This document shows positions 21,818-31,414 of a stretch of DNA of 64,000 bases, in pieces (the stretch's first letter is position 1; every line of letters starts with the position of its first letter). A model generated the notes under the pieces. It did no database searches. It saw only the letters and a program-made list of their open reading frames with translations, and was not told where the DNA came from. The DNA is from Brachyspira aalborgi (GTDB lineage: Bacteria > Spirochaetota > Brachyspiria > Brachyspirales > Brachyspiraceae). The position numbers and the translations under genes are program-made. The stretch lies in assembly GCF_008016455.1 (NCBI RefSeq), contig NZ_SAXU01000001.1:806001-870000 (forward strand). Direction: 5' to 3'.

Positions 21818-23872
21818 TTAATTAAATTTTTTATTCAATTCAAATATATTAATTTCTCCTACATTATTCAAATAATTAAAATTATAGTCGGTTAATTCGT
21901 TTTTAATTTTATCTATATCTTTATAATCAATCATTAAATAAAAATTATTTTCTTTAATGGAATTCAATTCGTTTCTATCATTTAAATATGAGTAATAAAG
22001 ATTAGTATTCAAATAATGAAAATCATAATAATTAATAAAAGATTTATAAGCGTAAACATTATAATTATTAGTTAAAACATATTTATCTTTATCAACAACT
22101 TCAAAATAAACAAATCTTTTAGAATTAGTTATATTAAATATATAAATTATTGATATTAAAGAAAGTAAAATAATTCTAATTTTTAAATTAGTAATAAAAC
22201 AAATAATTAATGGAATAAAAAATAATATAAATATATAACTTGATGCCGAATATCTTTCAAGTTTATACGGCGAAGTCAAATCTCCCAAAATTGCAAATAT
22301 TAATCCTAATAAAATAATAAATATTAATAATTTAAATTTTGATTTTTCTGCGATTATATTTAAATCTTTTTTCTTTATAATTTTTGATATTAAAATAAAA
22401 ACAAACAAAGTTAATAAAATTATTAATAATCCGTCAAAAGCTAAATCGTTAATATAATTAAATAATTTTCCCGAAAAAGCCAAAGAAGAAGACGCTCTAT
22501 TATTTGCATTAAATAAAGAAGCGAAAAAACTATTATATAATATTCTTGAGACAAATAAAGCCGAGATAAAAGCGAGCGCATAATATATTATTATTTTATA
22601 ACTTTTTATTTTTAATAAAGGATTTAATATCGCGTATTTATTTTTTAAGAATTCTAATTTATCAATATTTAAACAATAATTAAAAAATAACATTGCCGAT
22701 AAAATTAAAATAAATAATAATGAAGAATATAAAGTTAAATAACCAATTCCCGCGATTATTGAAGTTAAAATTAAATTTAGGATAGAATATTTATTATAAT
22801 AAATCGTATTCAAAACAAAATAAGTAATTACAATAAAGAAAGTTTCCTGCATTTGATAGGCTCTCAAAAACATAGAAAAACTTATTGATATTGGAGATAA
22901 TGAAAAAATTAATAAAGTAAATATTATAAATTCATTTTTATTTTCAAATATTAATTTTAAGATTTTAAATAAAAATATAAATGAAATAATTGAAAAAATG
23001 CAATTTAAAATCGTTCCTGTAATAATTATATTTTTAATATCAACCGCTTCTCTTCCGATAAAAGCTAATCTTAAAAAAGTATAATATAAATTGCTTATAA
23101 AAGGGTCGTTAGTGTCTTTATATAATCTCTTTATATCGTTTATGCAATCTTCTATGCTTGAATTATCAAATGTTAAATCTTTTAATATATCAAAACCTTT
23201 AATATTTTTATAATTATTAATTTTATCTTCATTTGCAAAAACTTTATAATTAGCAGCGCTTAAACTATAATATTCGTCCCAATACATACCTTCTTGTTTT
23301 GAAGCCCAGTAAATTCTTACGAATAAAGAAAATGATAATATTAAAAATAAAAAACTATATAAAATGTATTTTTTGTTAATTAAATTATAAAATTTATTAT
23401 AATAATAAATTTTAATATTATTCATTATAAATATTATTAAGATTGATAAATGTAATAATATAATTATCTCTATAATATTCTTTTTTATTTTTAATGTATA
23501 ATTAATATTGTCAATTTTATCTTCTTCAATAATTTTTTTATCTGAAATAAAAATTCCAAAAGGACTACCAAAATAATCCATTTTAATTTCTTTCACAAAA
23601 TCTGGTAAGTTTGATAAATCAGGATAAACTCCGTAAATATCGTTATTTCTAAATGTTTTGTCATAATATCTAATTCTAAAATGATAAACATAATTAGTTA
23701 TATTTTCCGAATTATTTAACTTCATTGTTTTATCAACAACTAAACTAAAATCACTTAAATATCCAATTCTATTTTTAGAACCAAGAATTTGTAAAACGAT
23801 TAGAGTAATAATTGTAATAATCACAAACGGAATATAAATTTTTAGAAATAAATTTTTGTTTTTAGATTTCAT
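21818..23872 (-). CDS. Polytopic membrane glycosyltransferase-like protein (GT-C / GT39-like)
   Basis: The 684-residue protein has an N-terminal membrane helix, an extracytoplasmic segment (about 30-130), then about ten hydrophobic segments. The motif RIYWASKQEGMYWDEYYSLS near residue 190 has the acidic pair after a membrane helix seen in GT-C enzymes that use lipid-linked sugars, such as ArnT or PMT relatives. This supports a role in surface glycan or lipid modification, with donor and acceptor unknown. AAGGA lies 9 nt before the ATG. Expression is probably controlled by the repeat-containing attenuator immediately upstream. Confidence 0.65.
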   Translation of the reverse strand: MKSKNKNLFLKIYIPFVIITIITLIVLQILGSKNRIGYLSDFSLVVDKTMKLNNSENITNYVYHFRIRYYDKTFRNNDIYGVYPDLSNLPDFVKEIKMDYFGSPFGIFISDKKIIEEDKIDNINYTLKIKKNIIEIIILLHLSILIIFIMNNIKIYYYNKFYNLINKKYILYSFLFLILSFSLFVRIYWASKQEGMYWDEYYSLSAANYKVFANEDKINNYKNIKGFDILKDLTFDNSSIEDCINDIKRLYKDTNDPFISNLYYTFLRLAFIGREAVDIKNIIITGTILNCIFSIISFIFLFKILKLIFENKNEFIIFTLLIFSLSPISISFSMFLRAYQMQETFFIVITYFVLNTIYYNKYSILNLILTSIIAGIGYLTLYSSLLFILILSAMLFFNYCLNIDKLEFLKNKYAILNPLLKIKSYKIIIYYALAFISALFVSRILYNSFFASLFNANNRASSSLAFSGKLFNYINDLAFDGLLIILLTLFVFILISKIIKKKDLNIIAEKSKFKLLIFIILLGLIFAILGDLTSPYKLERYSASSYIFILFFIPLIICFITNLKIRIILLSLISIIYIFNITNSKRFVYFEVVDKDKYVLTNNYNVYAYKSFINYYDFHYLNTNLYYSYLNDRNELNSIKENNFYLMIDYKDIDKIKNELTDYNFNYLNNVGEINIFELNKKFN

Positions 23873-23955
23873 AGAGCGATATCCTTAAAAGTTAATTTTT
23901 GTAGACGCAAGAGAAAGCGTTTAAATGTTTCAAATAATTCTTTAGTTTTGCAATG

Positions 23956-23985
23956 AAAAAACAGCCAAAAATTATAATAATGGCT
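23956..23985 (-). terminator. Intrinsic terminator in leader A, with the leader stop codon in its loop
   Basis: Stem AGCCA/TGGCT, a 13-nt loop containing TAA, then G and TTTTTT. It lies directly after the pentanucleotide repeats and about 85 nt before the glycosyltransferase ATG. The equivalent stem in leader B has different bases that still pair, supporting a conserved structure. Confidence 0.6.
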
Positions 23986-24037
23986 TGTATTGTATTGTAT
24001 TGTATTGTATTGTATTGTAGAATTTACATCCGCTCAT
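23972..24037 (-). CDS. Leader peptide A containing pentanucleotide repeats (21 aa)
   Basis: AAAGGAG sits 9 nt before ATG. The frame reads MSGCKF, then YNTIQ twice, then YKPLL and TAA. The repeats supply a five-codon period because the 5-bp unit is not a multiple of three. The stop lies in the terminator loop. Gain of one repeat would move the leader into a frame that stays open to a TGA overlapping the glycosyltransferase ATG (ATGA). Loss of one would give a frame that reads through the stem and stops about 20 nt before that ATG. Confidence 0.7.
   Translation of the reverse strand: MSGCKFYNTIQYNTIQYKPLL
23985..24019 (-). repeat. Pentanucleotide tandem repeat, (TACAA) x7 on the minus strand
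   Basis: Seven perfect copies inside leader ORF A. Perfect short tandem repeats of this length are prone to slipped-strand mispairing. The last base overlaps the outer base of the terminator stem. Confidence 0.95.
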
Positions 24038-24092
24038 TTTTCTTTTCTCCTTTTTTCGACAATTACAAATTACAATCAATTAATTTAAGAAA

Positions 24093-24121
24093 ATTATAAC
24101 ATATTTAATAAAAAATGTCAA
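24093..24121 (-). promoter_or_regulatory. Promoter of leader A and the glycosyltransferase gene
   Basis: TTGACA (24121-24116), 17 bp, TATAAT (24098-24093). The sequence around the -10 (ATATGTTATAATTT) is nearly identical to that of promoter B at 30593, as expected if both leaders derive from one ancestor. Confidence 0.75.
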
Positions 24122-24219
24122 TACTAATGATTTTATTTTATTGAAAAATAATCGGTTTTATTATATTATTAAAGCGTATTTATAATTTTATTAATTTCAA
24201 TTTTAAGGAGAATAAAATA

Positions 24220-25182
24220 ATGGTTAAATTTTCAGATTTAGGTTTAGTAAATAGCCGAGGGCTTTTTCAAAAAGCTGTAAGCGGAGGATATGCAATTCCC
24301 GCTTTCAATTTCAATAATATGGAGCAACTTCAGGCAATAATTCAAGCCTGCGTTGAAACAAAAAGCCCCGTTATACTTCAAGTTTCTTCAGGCGCTAGAA
24401 AATATGCCAATCAAACTTTATTAAGATATATGGCGCAAGGAGCGGTTGAATATGCAAAAGAATTGGGAGTAAATGTTCCTATAGTTTTACATTTAGACCA
24501 TGGCGACACTTTAGAACTTTGTAAAAGTTGTATTGAATATGGTTTTTCTTCCGTTATGATAGACGGCAGTCATCATGATTATAATAAAAATGTAGAATTG
24601 ACAAAAAGCGTTGTAGAATATGCTCATAAATACGATGTCACAGTCGAAGGCGAATTGGGAGTTTTAGCTGGAGTTGAAGACGATGTTGTAGCCGAACAGC
24701 ATACTTACACTCGCCCCGAAGAAGTTGAAGATTTTGTTAAAAAAACGGGAGTAGATTCTCTTGCAATATCTATTGGAACGAGTCATGGAGCTTATAAATT
24801 TAAACCAGGACAGAATCCTAAAATAAGGTTGGATATTCTTAAAGAGATAGAGAAAAAAATTCCAGGATTTCCTATAGTTTTGCATGGTTCTTCAAGCGTT
24901 CCACAAGAATATGTTAAAATTATTAACGAAAACGGCGGAAAATTAGACGATGCAATTGGAATACCAGAAGAGCAATTAAGAGAAGCCTCAAAAAGCGCGG
25001 TTTGTAAAATCAATATAGACAGCGATTCAAGACTAGCAATGACGGCGGCTATAAGAAAAGTATTTCATGATGACCCAAAAGAATTCGACCCAAGAAAATA
25101 TTTGGGACCTGCAAGAGATGAAATGAAAAAACTTTATATGCATAAAATAAATAATGTTTTAGGCAGTAATAATAAAATATAA
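24220..25182 (+). CDS. fba: Class II fructose-1,6-bisphosphate aldolase
   Basis: A zinc-dependent glycolytic aldolase that interconverts fructose bisphosphate and two triose phosphates. The zinc/catalytic segment HLDHGD lies near residues 87-92, VEGELG near 143, and a GSSSVP segment with HGSS lies near 225. The length of 320 aa matches the family. AAGGAG lies just before the ATG. A tiny basic gene follows after 9 nt and is probably cotranscribed. Confidence 0.96.
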   Translation: MVKFSDLGLVNSRGLFQKAVSGGYAIPAFNFNNMEQLQAIIQACVETKSPVILQVSSGARKYANQTLLRYMAQGAVEYAKELGVNVPIVLHLDHGDTLELCKSCIEYGFSSVMIDGSHHDYNKNVELTKSVVEYAHKYDVTVEGELGVLAGVEDDVVAEQHTYTRPEEVEDFVKKTGVDSLAISIGTSHGAYKFKPGQNPKIRLDILKEIEKKIPGFPIVLHGSSSVPQEYVKIINENGGKLDDAIGIPEEQLREASKSAVCKINIDSDSRLAMTAAIRKVFHDDPKEFDPRKYLGPARDEMKKLYMHKINNVLGSNNKI

Positions 25183-25191
25183 GGAGATATT

Positions 25192-25284
25192 ATGGGAAAG
25201 CAACATAGAAAAGTTGTAAAAAGAAAGAGAGCGGCAAGAAGAATAAAAAGACAAAAAGACGCTCTAAACGGCAAAACAAAATAA
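25192..25284 (+). CDS. Very small basic protein (30 aa)
   Basis: AAGGAG is 6 nt before the ATG. The product begins MGKQHRKVVKRKRAARRIKR and more than half of its residues are Lys or Arg. The composition suggests RNA or ribosome binding. It lies directly after the aldolase gene and before a hairpin. No family was identified with certainty. Confidence 0.65.
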   Translation: MGKQHRKVVKRKRAARRIKRQKDALNGKTK

Positions 25285-25306
25285 TTAAAATAAGTTTATA
25301 TAGCGA

Positions 25307-25329
25307 GGGCGTAAGTTATTCTTATGCCC
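25307..25329 (+). terminator. Probable terminator after the aldolase and small basic genes
   Basis: A 9-bp stem GGGCGTAAG / CTTATGCCC with one G-T pair and a 5-nt loop, followed by an imperfect T-rich stretch (TTAATTTATTATT). Confidence 0.6.
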
Positions 25330-25376
25330 TTAATTTATTATTGATAAAATTATTTGATAAAAAAGGATTTGATAAA

Positions 25377-26279
25377 ATGAAAAAGACAATATTTTTTATA
25401 ATTTTAATTTGGACGATTTTAATTTCATGTTCAAATAAATCTAATAAATCGCCTTTGGCAATACAAACCGATTTTGGAAGAAAAGATAACGCTGTTGCAA
25501 GTATGTATGGCGTTGCTTTGAGCGTTGATAAAGATTTGAAAGTTTACGATTTAACTCATGAAATTCCCGCTTATAATATTTGGGAGGCGGCTTTAAGATT
25601 GGAGCAGACGGCAAGATATTGGCCTTCGGGAACTGTATTTATTAATGTTGTCGACCCTGGAGTTGGAACGGAAAGAAAATCTGTAGTAATGAAAACTAAA
25701 AATAATTATTATTTCGTCACTCCCGATAATGGCGCTTTAACTTTTGTGGCGGAAAGTTTAGGAATTGAAGAAGTCAGAGAGATAGACGAAGCGATTAACA
25801 GAAGAGAAAATTCCGAAGAATCTTACACATTTCATGGGCGAGATGTTTATGTTTATACGGGCGCAAAATTAGCTTCAAAACAAATTACTTTTGAAAAAGT
25901 TGGAAAATCTTTAGGAACTAATATAACTAAAATAGATTACGAAAAAGCGAGATTTGAAGACGGAAAATTTTTCGCAAATATTCCAATTTTGGATATTCAA
26001 TACGGAAATGTTTGGAGTTCTTTACCAAGAAAATTAATGATAGATAACGGAATTCAAATTGGCGATATTTTAAATGTTAAAATTTATAATAATAATTCGC
26101 TTGTATGGACGGGAGACATTAAACTTGTAAATACATTCGGCGATGTGGCAGAAAATGATAATTTGGCTTATTTTAATTCAGAGCTTAATTTTTCGATTGC
26201 GATAAATATGGGAAATTTTTCAGAGAGGTATAGGGTTTACAGCGGTGCGGAATGGAGTATTGAGGTTGCTAAAATATAA
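25377..26279 (+). CDS. Lipoprotein of the SAM hydroxide adenosyltransferase (DUF62) family
   Basis: The mature region matches the family that hydrolyses S-adenosylmethionine or halogenates it: LAIQTDFGRKDNAVASMYG near the start, VDPGVGTERK, PDNGALT and FHGRDV. The start at 25377 follows an AAAGGA; the open frame extends to 25341 but without a ribosome site. The N-terminus is a clear lipoprotein signal ending in ILISC, so the protein should be anchored outside the cytoplasm, which is unexpected for an enzyme using SAM. It may act on another substrate or have become structural. Confidence 0.82.
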   Translation: MKKTIFFIILIWTILISCSNKSNKSPLAIQTDFGRKDNAVASMYGVALSVDKDLKVYDLTHEIPAYNIWEAALRLEQTARYWPSGTVFINVVDPGVGTERKSVVMKTKNNYYFVTPDNGALTFVAESLGIEEVREIDEAINRRENSEESYTFHGRDVYVYTGAKLASKQITFEKVGKSLGTNITKIDYEKARFEDGKFFANIPILDIQYGNVWSSLPRKLMIDNGIQIGDILNVKIYNNNSLVWTGDIKLVNTFGDVAENDNLAYFNSELNFSIAINMGNFSERYRVYSGAEWSIEVAKI

Positions 26280-26284
26280 TTAAT

Positions 26285-26404
26285 TTAAGCATGCCAGATA
26301 TAGAATGATAGATTTGAAATTGAAAGAATTTTTATACCACAATTTATATATAAACTAAAATTTATTGTAATAATAAAATTAATTAATAAAATAAATATTG
26401 TCAT
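26285..26404 (-). CDS. Small hydrophobic peptide (39 aa)
   Basis: A very strong ribosome site (AAGGAGG, 6 nt from ATG) precedes a frame starting MTIFILLINFIITINFSLYI, a single membrane helix, with a short tail ending WHA. The open frame continues further upstream, but the ribosome site supports this ATG. It could be a small membrane toxin or regulatory peptide, but no antisense RNA or antitoxin was identified. Confidence 0.45.
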   Translation of the reverse strand: MTIFILLINFIITINFSLYINCGIKILSISNLSFYIWHA

Positions 26405-26534
26405 AATATCCTCCTTAAAATTTATTGATATCTTTAATAGCACACTCACGCTAAAAGCATGCTTAAACCAATTATATTTCCATTTCAAAGAACCTGTATA
26501 GTAATATAACAAAAAATAAGTCAATTTTATAAAT

Positions 26535-26918
26535 TCAATTATTATTTAAATTGCTATATAAAGTGGATGTACAATTTCCACATATTTTACTACCAATTAC
26601 CGCAGCTATAACCCTCATACCTCTTTCATTAAAATCATTATCATTTTCTGTGTATATAACTTCTAAATTATTTGTATTGGGATATTTGCCATAATAAATA
26701 TTCAAGTTGCTATTACAAATAGTAGATTTTACTTCTACATCGTATAATTTTAAATTTGTATAATTATATTTATTACCCAAATTTATTTTACTACATTTAG
26801 ACATTCCATATACATCTATAGATATAATATTATTATATTTTGAAGTAATTTTAGTATCAAAAATATGATAATCAGAATCTCCATTAAACTCATATAATAG
26901 TAAAGCTTTTCCAATAAT
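26535..26918 (-). CDS. Hypothetical protein (127 aa), possible ATT start
   Basis: The first ATG of this frame is at 26804, but the frame is open and protein-like for another 38 codons upstream, to just after a stop. An ATT at 26918 lies 5 nt after AAAAGG, a good ribosome-site distance. The product would start IIGKALLLYEFNGDSDYH and contains ICNSN and SKICGNC near its C-terminus. Either a rare ATT start is used or an ATG was lost by mutation and the gene is decaying. No family was recognised. It lies in a region of gene debris. Confidence 0.5.
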   Translation of the reverse strand: MIGKALLLYEFNGDSDYHIFDTKITSKYNNIISIDVYGMSKCSKINLGNKYNYTNLKLYDVEVKSTICNSNLNIYYGKYPNTNNLEVIYTENDNDFNERGMRVIAAVIGSKICGNCTSTLYSNLNNN

Positions 26919-27023
26919 CGCTACCTTTTAATTTAATCAAATTTTCTAATTAATTAATATGAATTATACATTATATTAAGAATTATGTCAATACTTTTAT
27001 TAGTAAATTATTTATTTTAATTT

Positions 27024-27128
27024 TCATAAATAACTACTATTAATACTATCTTTTGGTATCCAACCTAAAACATTTTTAACTTTTCCAATATTTGCATAAA
27101 TAACAGCATAGCCTATAGTTTGATTACA
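27024..27128 (-). pseudogene. C-terminal remnant of an NDP-sugar epimerase
   Basis: The 34 codons before the TGA read QTIGYAVIYANIGKVKNVL then GWIPKDSI. This matches the end of UDP-glucuronate/UDP-galactose epimerase-like proteins (a QPGDV-like stretch, YANI.K.K..LGW.PK). No start codon or upstream portion remains. It indicates an eroded sugar-nucleotide gene next to the glycan genes. Confidence 0.45.
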
Positions 27129-27183
27129 TTATTGATTACATGATTTTTGAGTATTAACGATATATTTTTAATAGAGCTTATTT

Positions 27184-27882
27184 TTATAATAGTGTTGGAT
27201 TATTAAATTCATCATCTAATTCCTTTTGTTTTTGCTCTATTTCTCTATAGATATCATAAATTTCATTTTTCTCTTTTTCTATACTATACCCATTGATTTC
27301 TTTATGTATAACTTCTGATATTCTATTACAATAATTTGAAATATGCTTTATATATTTGTCAAATATAAATGAATAGTTGATACTTGATGTAGTTTGTGAG
27401 TATTTTAAATATTTAAAAATTGATTTTAATTTAGGGTAATATAGCTTATAAGAATTAGGAATATCTTTCTCATATTTTTCCAATAAAGCGATTATTTTAT
27501 TTATATTATCAGAATAACCTTTAACTATTTTATATATATCATATAAATAATAAAATTGTTGTGATAAACTGCCATTATCATTATTTATATTATAATAAAA
27601 TTTATCTAAATACTCTTCAGTAACTAATTTATCAATATAAAAATCAAATTCTTTGGATATATTAATACATCTATTAATTTTATTTAATTTAGACTGTAAT
27701 ATAAAACCTAGTATGAATATTAAAATTGGAACAATAGCTTCTATACCAACATGTATTATATCCAAATATGATGTTTTTGTTAGACTATAAATAGTATTAC
27801 TATTTAATCCAAAATTTGTTATCTCAGTATAATTAGTAATATAGTTTGTAATAAAATTAGTTAATATGATTTCATTTGTCAT
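27184..27882 (-). CDS. Hypothetical protein with one membrane helix and a helical cytoplasmic domain
   Basis: The product (232 aa) has an N-terminal Asn/Thr/Ile-rich stretch, a membrane helix at about residues 46-68 (VGIEAIVPILIFILGFILQ), then a long mostly helical soluble part ending in a Glu/Lys coiled coil. GGAG lies 8 nt before the ATG. No family was recognised. It stands alone in a region of broken genes and may be a recent arrival. Confidence 0.65.
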   Translation of the reverse strand: MTNEIILTNFITNYITNYTEITNFGLNSNTIYSLTKTSYLDIIHVGIEAIVPILIFILGFILQSKLNKINRCINISKEFDFYIDKLVTEEYLDKFYYNINNDNGSLSQQFYYLYDIYKIVKGYSDNINKIIALLEKYEKDIPNSYKLYYPKLKSIFKYLKYSQTTSSINYSFIFDKYIKHISNYCNRISEVIHKEINGYSIEKEKNEIYDIYREIEQKQKELDDEFNNPTLL

Positions 27883-28034
27883 CTATAATTCTCCATAAAT
27901 AATAGATTAAATAATCATAATTCAAATATTATATTATTTCAATAATGCTAAAATAATTATAGTTTCATTTAATAGAGTTATACTAAAATCTTATATTCTC
28001 ACTCAAAGCCTAATTATAAATTAATTAATATTTC

Positions 28035-30404
28035 TCATTTAAAAAATTTCCTCTTAAACCTCTCCCTCAATTTCCTAATAGGTATCCACCAAGCCAACTT
28101 ATTAATATTCTTTTCATTTATTTTTAATGAAATCTTAATTCCAAATAAATAAAACATTAAATAATCTTTCGTATTATAAATGCCAAATAATTTTATCCAA
28201 TTCTGTTTTTCATTAATATAATTCCGTAAATAATGTATCTCGCTTTCTTTCTCATTATTTTCTTCAATCAAATAATTTATTATATCGTCTCTATAATTAT
28301 ATTTTTCTTTTTTATTTTCTAATGCATTTTTTAACCAATTCAAGGATTTTACTTTTTCTATTTCAAGTTTTTTATTAATTTCTGTATAATCCATTTTTAG
28401 TAAAAAATCAGTATTATGCATAACTTCCGACAAATCGCTAATTATTCTGTTTTTTATATCAAACATATTCGATAAACTTTCTAATCTTGAAATTCCGCTT
28501 CCTTCGTTTAATATGCATACAAAAGGTTTATTAAAAATTATGGCAAAACAACTTCCATGAAAAGAATCGGTTATTAATAATTCAGAATTTTTTATAGTCC
28601 AAAGCCAATCTTCAATACTTATTTCTTCATTATCCTTAATTAAATATTCAATATCGAGGTTTAATTTATTTAAAATAAAATTAAGTTCATTTTCAATATT
28701 TGTATAAAGAGAATAAACGACAATAAATTTATTATTTTTATTTTTCATTGATTTGCTAACTAAATAATCGTAATCGTTAAGTAAAAATACTGGGTCTAAT
28801 ACATGAGTAGCTTCGACATCAAAATCTTCTTTACAAATTTTTACGCCGTCATATTCTCTAACCGAAACTTTATCAAATTGTTTTAAATAATACTTAAAAA
28901 GTATTTTATCTTTTAATTCTCCTTCAAAATAATTTATTCCAAAAGACGATGAATAAGCAATTTTATTTTTGAAGTTATATGCAAAATTTAGAAAATAAAA
29001 TTGAGCCGTTTCACCATGTGCTTTTGCTCGCCAAACTTGGTCAGAACCGACTACGAAATTATCGCATTTTTCATTTAATTTTTCCAATTCTTCTTTTGAA
29101 AAATATTCGTTTGCAATATTCAAATATTTTAAACCAAATCGATTGCCTAGCATATTGGAATATAAACTATTTTTATAACAGTAAAGATTATTATAAATTA
29201 TTAACGGATTATAACCCAAATCTTCTATAGTTTTATATAAAGCGTAAACCGTCAATATCGCTCCAAAATTATTTTGAAAAAGCATATTTGCTATTGCCAC
29301 ATTATATTTTGGATTATTTGAATTATTATATAAAGTCTCAAAATCTTCTTTATCCAAATTATCAAAAAAATATTTTCTGCTCGCAAATATAGGAACATTT
29401 CCGCCCAAACCTCCATTAGAAATATTATAAACTCTTTTATAATTAAAATTTGATTGATTAATATTTTCAAAAATTGATTTTCCTTTAATACTATTTACCA
29501 AAACCAAAGAAACTCCTTTATCGTCATTATCCTCAACGCCCCAATAATCGCCAATCGTAATATCGCCAGCTCGCTCAAATTTTCTATATTTACAACGAAT
29601 GCACTCTTCTTTGCAAGAAATATGCTCCAAAAACGCTCTCATGTAAAAATCTTCGCTCTTTTTGTCTATATATTCGATTTCCGCCGATTTCAAGAAACAC
29701 CCACCCAACCAACCTAGGGCTTTTTTGTCTCTAAAGCTTATATATTCTATTTTTGCAGTATCGTTAAATTTCTCCAATAAATATTTTCTCCAAACTTTTT
29801 GCGGAACTACGCTATTGCAAAGCAAATCAACCGTTATTAAATTTTCGTAATCTCTACCTAAATAAAAATTTAATGCAGAAACTTGACAAGGCGTCCCTGA
29901 AAATAAAACCAATTTTTTATCGTTTAATAATCTCTTTATTTCAGAAAAAATATTTCCCAAAGAACTTTCGACATATTTCGAGCCTCTCAATTTGTCCAAA
30001 TCTTTTTTGTCTTCAATTATTATATGTTCTACACCAAGCCAATCTTCCCGCCAACTTGCGCCGCATACAAAACCGTTATTTTCAAAAACATAATCGGCAA
30101 TTAAAGTAAACATTCCGCCCGAAGACGATTTCATTCTTATTTCATCGCTCGCCCTTACATCGTAGAATTCTTGATTAAAGTCGGTTTTAAAATTATCGTT
30201 TAGAGCATGGCATTTTTTAACGCATAAACCGCAATCTGTGCATAATTTTTCATCGATAACAGGACAATGAAAGCCTTCTTTAGTTTCAATCATTTTAATG
30301 CAATTATGAGGACAAACTTGTGCGCATACCGAACAACCCGTGCATTCTTTTTTGTCTAAAATATTAATATTATTACCGTTATTTTTTTCATGGAGTTTAA
30401 TCAT
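28035..30404 (-). CDS. Fused FrhB-type Fe-S oxidoreductase and polysaccharide pyruvyl transferase
   Basis: Three parts are visible: a two-cluster ferredoxin domain with Cys motifs CTGCSVCAQVCPHNC (21-35) and CTDCGLCVKKC (55-65); an FrhB-like domain (about 75-330); and a polysaccharide pyruvyl transferase-like domain (about 365-650) with FVVGSDQVWR and ITDSFHGSCFA. A basic C-terminal tail follows. Pyruvyl transferases add ketal pyruvate to surface glycans, and FrhB domains are found in glycan clusters of many anaerobes. AAGGAG is 8 nt before the ATG. It is the gene controlled by repeat-containing leader B. Confidence 0.85.
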   Translation of the reverse strand: MIKLHEKNNGNNINILDKKECTGCSVCAQVCPHNCIKMIETKEGFHCPVIDEKLCTDCGLCVKKCHALNDNFKTDFNQEFYDVRASDEIRMKSSSGGMFTLIADYVFENNGFVCGASWREDWLGVEHIIIEDKKDLDKLRGSKYVESSLGNIFSEIKRLLNDKKLVLFSGTPCQVSALNFYLGRDYENLITVDLLCNSVVPQKVWRKYLLEKFNDTAKIEYISFRDKKALGWLGGCFLKSAEIEYIDKKSEDFYMRAFLEHISCKEECIRCKYRKFERAGDITIGDYWGVEDNDDKGVSLVLVNSIKGKSIFENINQSNFNYKRVYNISNGGLGGNVPIFASRKYFFDNLDKEDFETLYNNSNNPKYNVAIANMLFQNNFGAILTVYALYKTIEDLGYNPLIIYNNLYCYKNSLYSNMLGNRFGLKYLNIANEYFSKEELEKLNEKCDNFVVGSDQVWRAKAHGETAQFYFLNFAYNFKNKIAYSSSFGINYFEGELKDKILFKYYLKQFDKVSVREYDGVKICKEDFDVEATHVLDPVFLLNDYDYLVSKSMKNKNNKFIVVYSLYTNIENELNFILNKLNLDIEYLIKDNEEISIEDWLWTIKNSELLITDSFHGSCFAIIFNKPFVCILNEGSGISRLESLSNMFDIKNRIISDLSEVMHNTDFLLKMDYTEINKKLEIEKVKSLNWLKNALENKKEKYNYRDDIINYLIEENNEKESEIHYLRNYINEKQNWIKLFGIYNTKDYLMFYLFGIKISLKINEKNINKLAWWIPIRKLRERFKRKFFK

Positions 30405-30466
30405 TTTGAAAACTCCTTAATATAAAAATAATTAGATAATTCTTTAATAAATAATTTTCTGCAATG

Positions 30467-30498
30467 AAAAAATCGCCGAAAAAATTTACAATGCGGCG
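30467..30498 (-). terminator. Intrinsic terminator in leader B, with the leader stop codon in its loop
   Basis: Stem CGCCG/CGGCG, a 15-nt loop containing TAA, then A and TTTTTT. The T-run is followed by CATTGCA, exactly as in leader A. All five stem pairs are kept although three positions differ from leader A (only the central bases are shared). Confidence 0.65.
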
Positions 30499-30560
30499 TG
30501 TGTAGTGTAGTGTAGTGTAGTGTAGTGTAGTGTAGTGTAGTGTAGTGGCAAACTAAACAT
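30486..30560 (-). CDS. Leader peptide B containing pentanucleotide repeats (24 aa)
   Basis: AGGAA lies 6 nt before the ATG. The frame reads MFSLP, three copies of LHYTT, then HAAL and TAA, with the stop in the terminator loop. Adding one 5-bp repeat opens a frame through the terminator to a TGA that overlaps the ATG of the pyruvyltransferase fusion (ATGA). Removing one opens a frame that reads past that ATG and stops two codons into the gene. Confidence 0.7.
   Translation of the reverse strand: MFSLPLHYTTLHYTTLHYTTHAAL
30501..30545 (-). repeat. Pentanucleotide tandem repeat, (CTACA) x9 on the minus strand
   Basis: Nine perfect copies form most of leader ORF B. The repeat unit differs from that of leader A while position and function in the leader are the same. 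Confidence 0.95.
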
Positions 30561-30592
30561 ATAAAATTCCTACTTTATTTTTTAATGAATAA

Positions 30593-30620
30593 ATTATAAC
30601 ATATTAATAAAAAAAGTCAA
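30593..30620 (-). promoter_or_regulatory. Promoter of leader B and the pyruvyltransferase fusion
   Basis: TTGACT (30620-30615), 16 bp, TATAAT (30598-30593), with the same AATATGTTATAATTT context as promoter A. Confidence 0.75.
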
Positions 30621-30661
30621 TACTTTAATTTTCTTCTTTTATTATTAATAATTATAAAATA

Positions 30662-31414
30662 TTATTTTATATTTTTTAAAGAATTTCTCATATACTCGAC
30701 TACATTTATATTATAAATATTATTCAATAATTCTAAATTAAAATTCTCAATATCGCCAAAATATATAATCTCTCCTTTATGTAAAAGCAATATTTTATCG
30801 GCAAAATTTAAAGCGTTATTGATATCATGCATCACGGCTATAATGCATCTAAAATCTTTATTAACCCATTCTTTCAAATTATAAATAAGTTCAATTTGAC
30901 TATTTAAGTCTAAATGATTAGTAGGTTCATCCATTAATATAATTTTTGGATTTTGAGCGAAAGCTCTAGCTAAAAAAACTTTTTGAAGCTCGCCACAAGA
31001 AAGTCGATTTATAAGTTTATCTTTCAAATGAATAATATTTAATTTTTCTAAACATTCAAATACAAATTCTTTATCTTCTTTGGTTGGAATTGATAAAAGT
31101 TTATCTTTAAAATTTGCGTATCTTCCCAACATAACCGTATCAAAAACATTATAATCAAAATATATTTCTGAAGACTGACTTAAAAAAGATACGGATTTAT
31201 AAACTTCAATATTTTTTATATTTTTATTATTAATAAATATTGAGCCTTGAAAATCTAAAATATTGCATAAACATTTTAATAAAGTAGTTTTTCCCGAACC
31301 GTTTGGACCTATAATACATAATCTTTCGTTTTCAAATAACTTAAACGATATGTTTTTTAATATTTTTTTATTATTGTAATCGTAAGAAAAAGATAAATTA
31401 TTAACTTCAATCAT
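30662..31414 (-). CDS. btuD: ABC transporter ATP-binding protein, vitamin B12 uptake
   Basis: The 250-residue ATPase has Walker A GPNGSGKTT near residue 36, an LSCGELQKVFLARA signature near 138, and Walker B IILMDEPTNHLD near 158. It belongs to the Fe-siderophore/B12 class. Its start overlaps the permease stop by 4 nt. Assignment to B12 rests on the cobalamin riboswitch at the head of the operon; the protein alone could serve heme or siderophore uptake. It is the last gene of the operon. Confidence 0.85.
   Translation of the reverse strand: MIEVNNLSFSYDYNNKKILKNISFKLFENERLCIIGPNGSGKTTLLKCLCNILDFQGSIFINNKNIKNIEVYKSVSFLSQSSEIYFDYNVFDTVMLGRYANFKDKLLSIPTKEDKEFVFECLEKLNIIHLKDKLINRLSCGELQKVFLARAFAQNPKIILMDEPTNHLDLNSQIELIYNLKEWVNKDFRCIIAVMHDINNALNFADKILLLHKGEIIYFGDIENFNLELLNNIYNINVVEYMRNSLKNIK

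Follow-up and report, generated by a model that had tools for sequence, protein, structure and literature searches.

Pentanucleotide-repeat leaders upstream of glycan and surface genes in Brachyspira aalborgi: candidates for frame-dependent attenuation

Within the stretch of the Brachyspira aalborgi genome studied here, hereafter called the window (64,000 nucleotides, positions 806,001 to 870,000 of contig NZ_SAXU01000001.1), a gene for a polysaccharide pyruvyl transferase fusion is preceded by a short leader, leader B. Comparison with other loci suggests that this leader probably belongs to a phase-variable cassette that is present at many scattered loci and acts by frame-dependent attenuation. 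At least 21 leaders with 5-nt repeats were found in this genome, 16 of the type represented by leaders A and B of the window and five others (L054, L055, L082, L143 and L144).

Leaders A and B in the window

The features of both leaders are compiled in Table 1. The architecture proposed for leader B in the original prediction (promoter, Shine-Dalgarno sequence, ORF of 24 codons, nine CTACA units, stem, TAA in the loop, six T residues, CATTGCA) proved to be correct letter by letter. Frame counting also bore out the two alternatives that had been foreseen for a changed number of repeats. One additional CTACA unit leads to an ORF ending at a TGA that overlaps the start codon of the gene (ATGA), and after loss of one unit the ORF passes the gene start and ends at a TAA whose first base lies 5 nt downstream of the A in the start codon. 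The array of leader B is stop-free in all frames, and the spacer between CATTGCA and the gene start measures 55 nt, including AAGGAG. In B-type copies the ribosome-binding site of the leader ORF reads GTAGGA or GTGGAG.

Table 1. Positions of leaders A and B and of the genes behind them in the window
Feature	Position	Strand	Basis
Leader A (L018), promoter TTGACA-17-TATAAT	24093..24121	-	12/12 consensus letters
Leader A, ORF, 21 codons + TAA in loop	23972..24037	-	frame count
Leader A, ATACA array, seven units	23985..24019	-	repeat count
Leader A, hairpin AGCCA/TGGCT	23963..23985	-	-5.9 kcal/mol, z -2.55
Leader A, TTTTTTCATTGCA	23949..23961	-	motif match
Gene behind leader A, 684 aa, without Pfam or NCBIfam match	21818..23872	-	domain search
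Leader B, promoter TTGACT-16 nt-TATAAT, TG before second hexamer	30593..30620	-	11/12 consensus letters; kept in other copies
Leader B, ribosome-binding site GTAGGA	30568..30573	-	sequence
Leader B, ORF, 24 codons + TAA; ATG at 30560, native TAA (30488-30486) in hairpin loop	30486..30560	-	sequence, frame count
Leader B, CTACA array, nine full units (9.6 copies, 48 bp)	30500..30547	-	repeat count
Leader B, hairpin H1, CGCCG (30498-30494) with CGGCG (30478-30474), 15-nt loop including TAA (30488-30486)	30474..30498	-	fold
Leader B, TTTTTT (30472-30467), then CATTGCA (30466-30460)	30460..30472	-	17 exact genome copies, control 0
AAGGAG, ribosome-binding site of gene behind leader B	30413..30418	-	sequence
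ATGA, gene start codon overlapping leader-ORF TGA (+1 unit frame)	30401..30404	-	frame count
Gene behind leader B (L019), 4Fe-4S + FrhB/FdhB + polysaccharide pyruvyl transferase, 789 aa	28035..30404	-	domain search; 67% identical B. catarrhinii homologue

The promoter of leader B ranks third in the list of promoters for positions 23700-30800. The cassette promoter is nearly identical to promoters lying directly before tRNA-like sequences (tRNA by eye) at L141, L145 and L146, and is therefore probably very strong. H1 of leader B, with -6.2 kcal/mol and a z of -1.33, is weak alone. It was absent from the output of the terminator scan because its loop exceeds the loop limit of that scan, which is 8. 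An Rfam search of the window at the gathering score gave a tRNA as its sole match and none at the leaders.

Gene starts similar to that behind leader A were identified behind L009, L011, L021 and L023. A recurrent protein (~525-685 aa) with a hydrophobic N-terminal stretch is encoded at these four loci, at window positions 21818-23872 and by the second gene of L055, where it adjoins an MBOAT gene; in the copies scanned it revealed no Pfam or NCBIfam match.

Further copies, their genes and cassette exchange

The 2.5-Mb genome contains 17 copies of the sequence TTTTTTCATTGCA versus 0 of the reversed control, and 15 of the 17 matches are preceded by a 5-nt-repeat leader. The two remaining matches, L013 and L022, do not lie behind such a leader. 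Within the 64-kb window alone, the search for TTTTTTCATTGCA with one mismatch gave 7 matches versus 6.2 expected, which is not above chance; the leader family is visible at the level of the whole genome only, not from motif statistics of the window. Searching this genome for the array itself brought in L054, L055 and L056 (B-type), the leader sequence used as a DNA query retrieved L082, and promoter similarity added two leaders with other units, L143 (AATTC) and L144 (AGAAC). Copies beyond leaders A and B thus exist, the total of A/B leaders being at least 16 in this genome and five in Brachyspira catarrhinii Z12. The latter are A-type leaders; the same strain also harbors L133 and L147 (AAGCA).

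Leaders of other types were met elsewhere in the genus: type D in five further genomes, before a gene that by eye is lipoprotein-like, type E in one genome, and type G in one genome with three copies (L067, L134, L135). Altogether, 9 of the 26 genomes of the genus yielded at least 37 5-nt-repeat leaders, most of which precede a glycan or surface gene. This total is a lower bound, arrays with other units having been met only by chance. The number of units varies between copies from 2 to 23 (one genome per species). A search for TTTTTTCATTGCA in the other 24 genus genomes disclosed no array at the 26 loci read among the matches listed. In a collection of 84,980 species, TYGGCKRTTTTTTCATTGCA matched 21 stretches, namely the five B. 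catarrhinii leaders and 16 stretches without a 5-nt array, and none of the five matches of GGCKRTTTTTTCATTGCA in viral contigs had an array. The MTACA leader pattern was present in 6 of the 26 genus genomes versus 0 of 270 other genomes of the phylum; it misses A-type leaders because TATG is required before the array.

Three arrays were dropped as leaders, L073 on account of its position upstream of a promoter, L148 and L149, two 7-nt arrays after promoters, for having no ORF or gene close behind. At L148 (G000:C1:170500-172900) and L149 (G000:C1:2224300-2227000) the arrays (GAGCCTT)7 and (GCTTTCT)7, respectively, directly follow a strong promoter, and both loci possibly encode variable small RNAs. 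The promoter of L149 recurs at L150, there without an array. CATTGCA also occurs after the hairpin of L055 and before the type D terminator, and it resembles the start of a TCATTGC...GCAATCC repeat in L149.

The following genes stand behind the leaders of this genome, as judged by domain matches: a pyruvyl transferase (L019), a PMT_2 glycosyltransferase (L012), a radical SAM/SPASM protein (L014), methyltransferases (L017, L020), a nucleotidyl transferase 297 nt after the array (L010), an MBOAT acyltransferase (L055), a PTS sugar transporter (L054), an esterase (L082) and a GT10 fucosyltransferase (L143). Five similar genes of ~670-685 aa stand behind L009, L011, L018, L021 and L023, two of which (L009, L018) were scanned and had no Pfam match; the proteins behind L015 and L144 had none either. 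At L016 the leader continues into an ORF of 127 aa, beyond which a GT8/radical SAM protein is encoded, and by eye a short gene remnant is all that follows L056. L024 and L025 end with their contigs. They are very similar leaders of 6 and 23 units at the ends of contigs C3 and C4, respectively, both without the 5' stem arm and both ending at the same sequence. In B. catarrhinii, a GT11 (L059), an FkbM methyltransferase (L133), a homologue of the pyruvyl transferase (L061) and a protein without Pfam match (L057) were found, and the AAGCA leader L147 reads in frame into a downstream ORF. The one type G copy scanned, L135, precedes a BNR (sialidase-like) protein.

The A/B copies are alike from the -35 region onward and diverge at differing points after CATTGCA. 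The pyruvyl transferase of B. catarrhinii is 67% identical to the one behind leader B but follows an A-type leader with another spacer; a loop stop and an ATGA frame are nonetheless present. Conversely, L014 and L057 share a neighbouring gene (82% identical), while the genes behind the two leaders are unrelated. Judged by these comparisons, the leader cassettes move between genes.

Reading frames and hairpins

In all 21 A/B copies, five of them from B. catarrhinii, one frame ends in the hairpin loop and others pass it. A TAA immediately ahead of the stem terminates a second frame in five B copies (L009, L012, L014, L020 and L056). An ATGA frame exists in 15 of the 19 A/B copies with the downstream region in reach and is missing in L016, L017, L021 and L059. 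The predicted pair of alternatives therefore held in other copies without exception for the loop stop and with these four exceptions for the ATGA. In this genome the TGA of the ATGA frame lies 69, 90, 96 or 102 nt past the start of the T run, and the hairpins begin roughly 45-115 nt past the leader start. The ATGA register is kept in six of the seven distinct A/B spacers (P 0.0069, with a chance of 1/3 for each), the seven spacers not being completely independent because the first parts of some are shared. At L021, which carries a frame-breaking insertion before an intact-looking gene, the register is lost and the stem mismatched. L082, a leader unrelated to A/B, has an ATGA frame as well, and L058 of B. 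catarrhinii, with two units only, is natively in this frame.

Natively, 11 of 14 A/B leaders of this genome stop at the hairpin, versus 6.3 expected (P 0.009), and none of the 14 is in the ATGA frame; L024 and L025 were left out of this count because their 5' stem arm is missing. Such native frames would be consistent with a sequenced clone in which most glycan loci are silent, though assembly errors in long arrays could matter. At L016 and L147 the leader ORF continues in one frame into the downstream ORF, so that the effect of the cassette there would be that of a classical coding repeat. Before the gene start, A/B spacers (e.g., L009, L010, L011, L023, L061) contain a second small hairpin, ACGC...GCGT, with ATGC/GCAT at its place in L056, and type G leaders (L067, L134, L135) have a small hairpin GCATTTA...TAAATGC before the gene start.

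The stems of types A and B differ in two of five pairs, both of which changed on both sides (from B to A, C-G to A-U and G-C to A-U), and the other three pairs are invariant among intact stems. Pairs were counted by script, since MAFFT had set the 5' arms of A and B two columns apart. All five pairs are present in 16 of the 21 A/B copies and broken pairs were seen in L010, L021, L056, L024 and L025. The compensatory changes claimed for the stem are thus found, but they go back to one evolutionary split between A and B, and this covariation, real but thin, is therefore weak evidence by itself. The broader claim, that structure and phasing are preserved despite changed sequence, agrees with the other repeats and spacers and with the register kept in six of seven of the latter (P 0.007).

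Terminator strength and frame usage differ among the other leader types. Type D and E hairpins reach about -20 kcal/mol with a z of about -6 (-19.9 kcal/mol and -6.1 for the type D leader L086). In type D, one conserved frame runs through the strong terminator in all five genomes, and both other frames stop at most 13 nt from the array in four of them (one such frame only in L085), with stops ~70 nt or more upstream of the hairpin. The sole length difference before the terminator, 9 nt, keeps the conserved frame, whereas behind the terminator single-base differences shift it and the stops scatter; the conserved frame closes 29-85 nt short of the gene. What is conserved thus seems to be passage through the terminator rather than arrival at the gene. 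In type E no frame passes the terminator, and in L054, L082 and types G and H no hairpin with a U tract was seen, so that a terminator is not universal.

The openness of the leader frames was compared with dinucleotide shuffles of the spacer for ten leader families. Nine of them have a frame that stays open at least until 45 nt before the gene start (pooled P 0.0057). Single families, with P from 0.017 to 0.80, were mostly non-significant (D 0.017, AB 0.24, C2 0.31, J 0.54, H 0.62, E 0.80), and the evidence lies in the pooled pattern and in the register.

Proposed mechanism, alternatives and known systems

According to our model, a strong promoter would drive synthesis of a short mRNA leader with a translatable ORF. 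Since the 5-nt repeat resides inside this ORF, each gain or loss of a unit moves the ribosome to another frame, and slippage of the array during replication would make the population a mixture. Where the ORF ends at the hairpin, the ribosome would leave and either the terminator would form or the uncovered RNA would be open to Rho, with little mRNA of the gene as the result. Translation through the hairpin would block it and transcription would continue; in the ATGA frame, the same ribosomes could reinitiate at the gene start. Placed before many different glycan genes, such cassettes may give each cell a random set of surface sugars. We regard the frame switch itself as highly probable. Towards attenuation at H1 as the main step in A/B leaders we lean slightly, and for translational coupling as an important A/B step we see the chances as evenly balanced; the ATGA register kept in A/B leaders points to coupling to the gene in addition. 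More tentatively, the at least 21 leaders could form a genome-wide three-state contingency code, in which each A/B copy would inherit one of the states stop at the hairpin, through but uncoupled, or through and coupled by ATGA, and in which repeat counts in interchangeable cassettes before glycan genes would set a combinatorial repertoire of surface sugars.

The frame that stops in the loop had been taken for the silent one. This was an assumption, as in the pil1 attenuator of Streptococcus gallolyticus a leader stop within the hairpin or 4 bp before it gives high expression and the silent stop lies 39-49 bp upstream of the hairpin (PMC3894217). In E. coli, a terminator is repressed by stops that lie a few bp ahead of it, and terminators can be efficient within the initial 100 bp of a coding sequence (PMC4824070). 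The findings in both organisms make a clean OFF state less likely for A/B leaders that stop in the loop. The weakness of H1, the leaders without a U-tract hairpin, type E and the intact-looking gene behind the broken frame of L021 also speak against the attenuation model. The repression of termination by near or in-hairpin stops (PMC3894217, PMC4824070) would agree with translational coupling as the main A/B switch, in which only the ATGA frame hands ribosomes to the gene, while the hairpin plays a minor part or slows translation. Such a switch would account for the ATGA frame being retained over differing spacers in 15 of 19 testable copies, for its occurrence in L082, where no U-tract terminator was seen, and for the two-unit leader L058 residing in it natively. 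It is nevertheless rather unlikely, considering that most genes have an AAGGAG-like site of their own, that none of 14 A/B copies of this genome is natively in the ATGA frame, and that the conserved type D frame ends 29-85 nt before the gene, with no frame kept behind the terminator.

Leaders without U tracts would be covered if early stops left an untranslated spacer that is ended by Rho and protected in the through frames, no intrinsic terminator being needed. Nine of ten families do share a through frame, whether or not they have a U-tract hairpin, but A/B spacers are short and low in C, and types D and E possess strong intrinsic terminators; we consider Rho-dependent polarity unlikely. Short repeats tune the spacing of promoters or mRNA 5'-ends in other systems, and the arrays of leaders A and B lie ~45-75 nt after the -10 region. 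That they tune such spacing here instead of the reading frame is very improbable, however, for arrays inside ORFs with a Shine-Dalgarno sequence, downstream of the promoter and stop-free in all frames, the more so as stop positions sort by frame and the sole array upstream of a promoter (L073) is not a leader. The similarity of the A/B copies, five of them with broken pairs, might also reflect recent duplication of one promoter-leader unit with neutral, hitch-hiking repeats. We give this explanation equally little credit, as the same plan recurs with units (AATTC, AGAAC) and spacers that are unrelated, and frame and ATGA are kept where the sequence changed. Frame-dependent attenuation thus remains our preferred reading, and type D seems to be its clearest case and the best fit to the known pil1/pil3 model.

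Compared with attenuators of the trp type, no competing antiterminator structure was seen in the folds examined, one set of which covered the H1 region only, and the repeats encode L-H-Y-T-T or Y-N-T-I-Q rather than a run of regulatory codons. In pyrBI attenuation of E. coli the signal is the nucleotide level. As is proposed for the leaders described here, pyrBI has a leader ORF that spans an intrinsic terminator kept open by the translating ribosome; the nucleotide level there contrasts with an inherited repeat number as the proposed signal here. Slippage of short repeats likewise alters the reading frame in classical phase variation by coding repeats, known from opa, mod and similar contingency genes. 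The Brachyspira repeats, in contrast, reside in a separate leader ORF in most copies, and solely L016 and L147 read in frame into the downstream ORF.

Closest are the phase-variable attenuators of the two pilus loci pil1 and pil3 of S. gallolyticus with the 5-nt repeat GCAGA, where experiments on start codon, terminator and chloramphenicol support translation-dependent antitermination (Danne et al. 2014, PMC3894217). As in Brachyspira, a 5-nt repeat resides in a leader ORF led by a Shine-Dalgarno sequence, a hairpin that in Brachyspira is a putative terminator precedes the gene, the frame sets the end of the ORF, and genes for surface structures follow. The leaders found here have the repeat in an ORF with its own Shine-Dalgarno sequence behind a promoter. 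Between array and gene there is a predicted but weak hairpin with U6 in A/B (z -1.33 and -2.55 for leaders B and A) and a strong predicted terminator with a z of -6 in D and E. Depending on unit number modulo 3, type D has at least one frame that stops before the terminator and one that stops beyond it (5/5), and A/B leaders have one frame that ends in the loop (21/21) and others that pass. A stop 28 nt or more ahead of the hairpin, as would be expected of a silent frame, is seen in D, unlike in A/B, where the stop is in the loop or directly before the stem. Further features that set the A/B leaders apart are the position of the nearest stop, inside the loop, and the frame that reaches ATGA; neither "overlap" nor "translational coupling" appears in the pil1 text (PMC3894217). 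Phylum and repeats are other ones as well, and two loci compare with at least 21 leaders here.

Literature searches, judged by title and start of the abstract, retrieved no paper on phase-variable leaders in Brachyspira, and portions of the B. aalborgi genome paper (PMC6779451) hold nothing on such leaders. Among the matches listed for leader peptides, phase variation and attenuation more broadly, pil1 was the only clear precedent. The kind of mechanism is already known from pil1/pil3; as far as these searches go, the spirochaete setting, the scale, the exchange of cassettes and the ATGA coupling would be new. A genus of gut spirochaetes appears to use frame-coded leader attenuation as a general tool, with tens of leaders and several unrelated units, which would explain surface variation in Brachyspira. 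Next to the two pilus loci, these leaders offer natural constructs for studying how leader stop position, termination and translational coupling act together.
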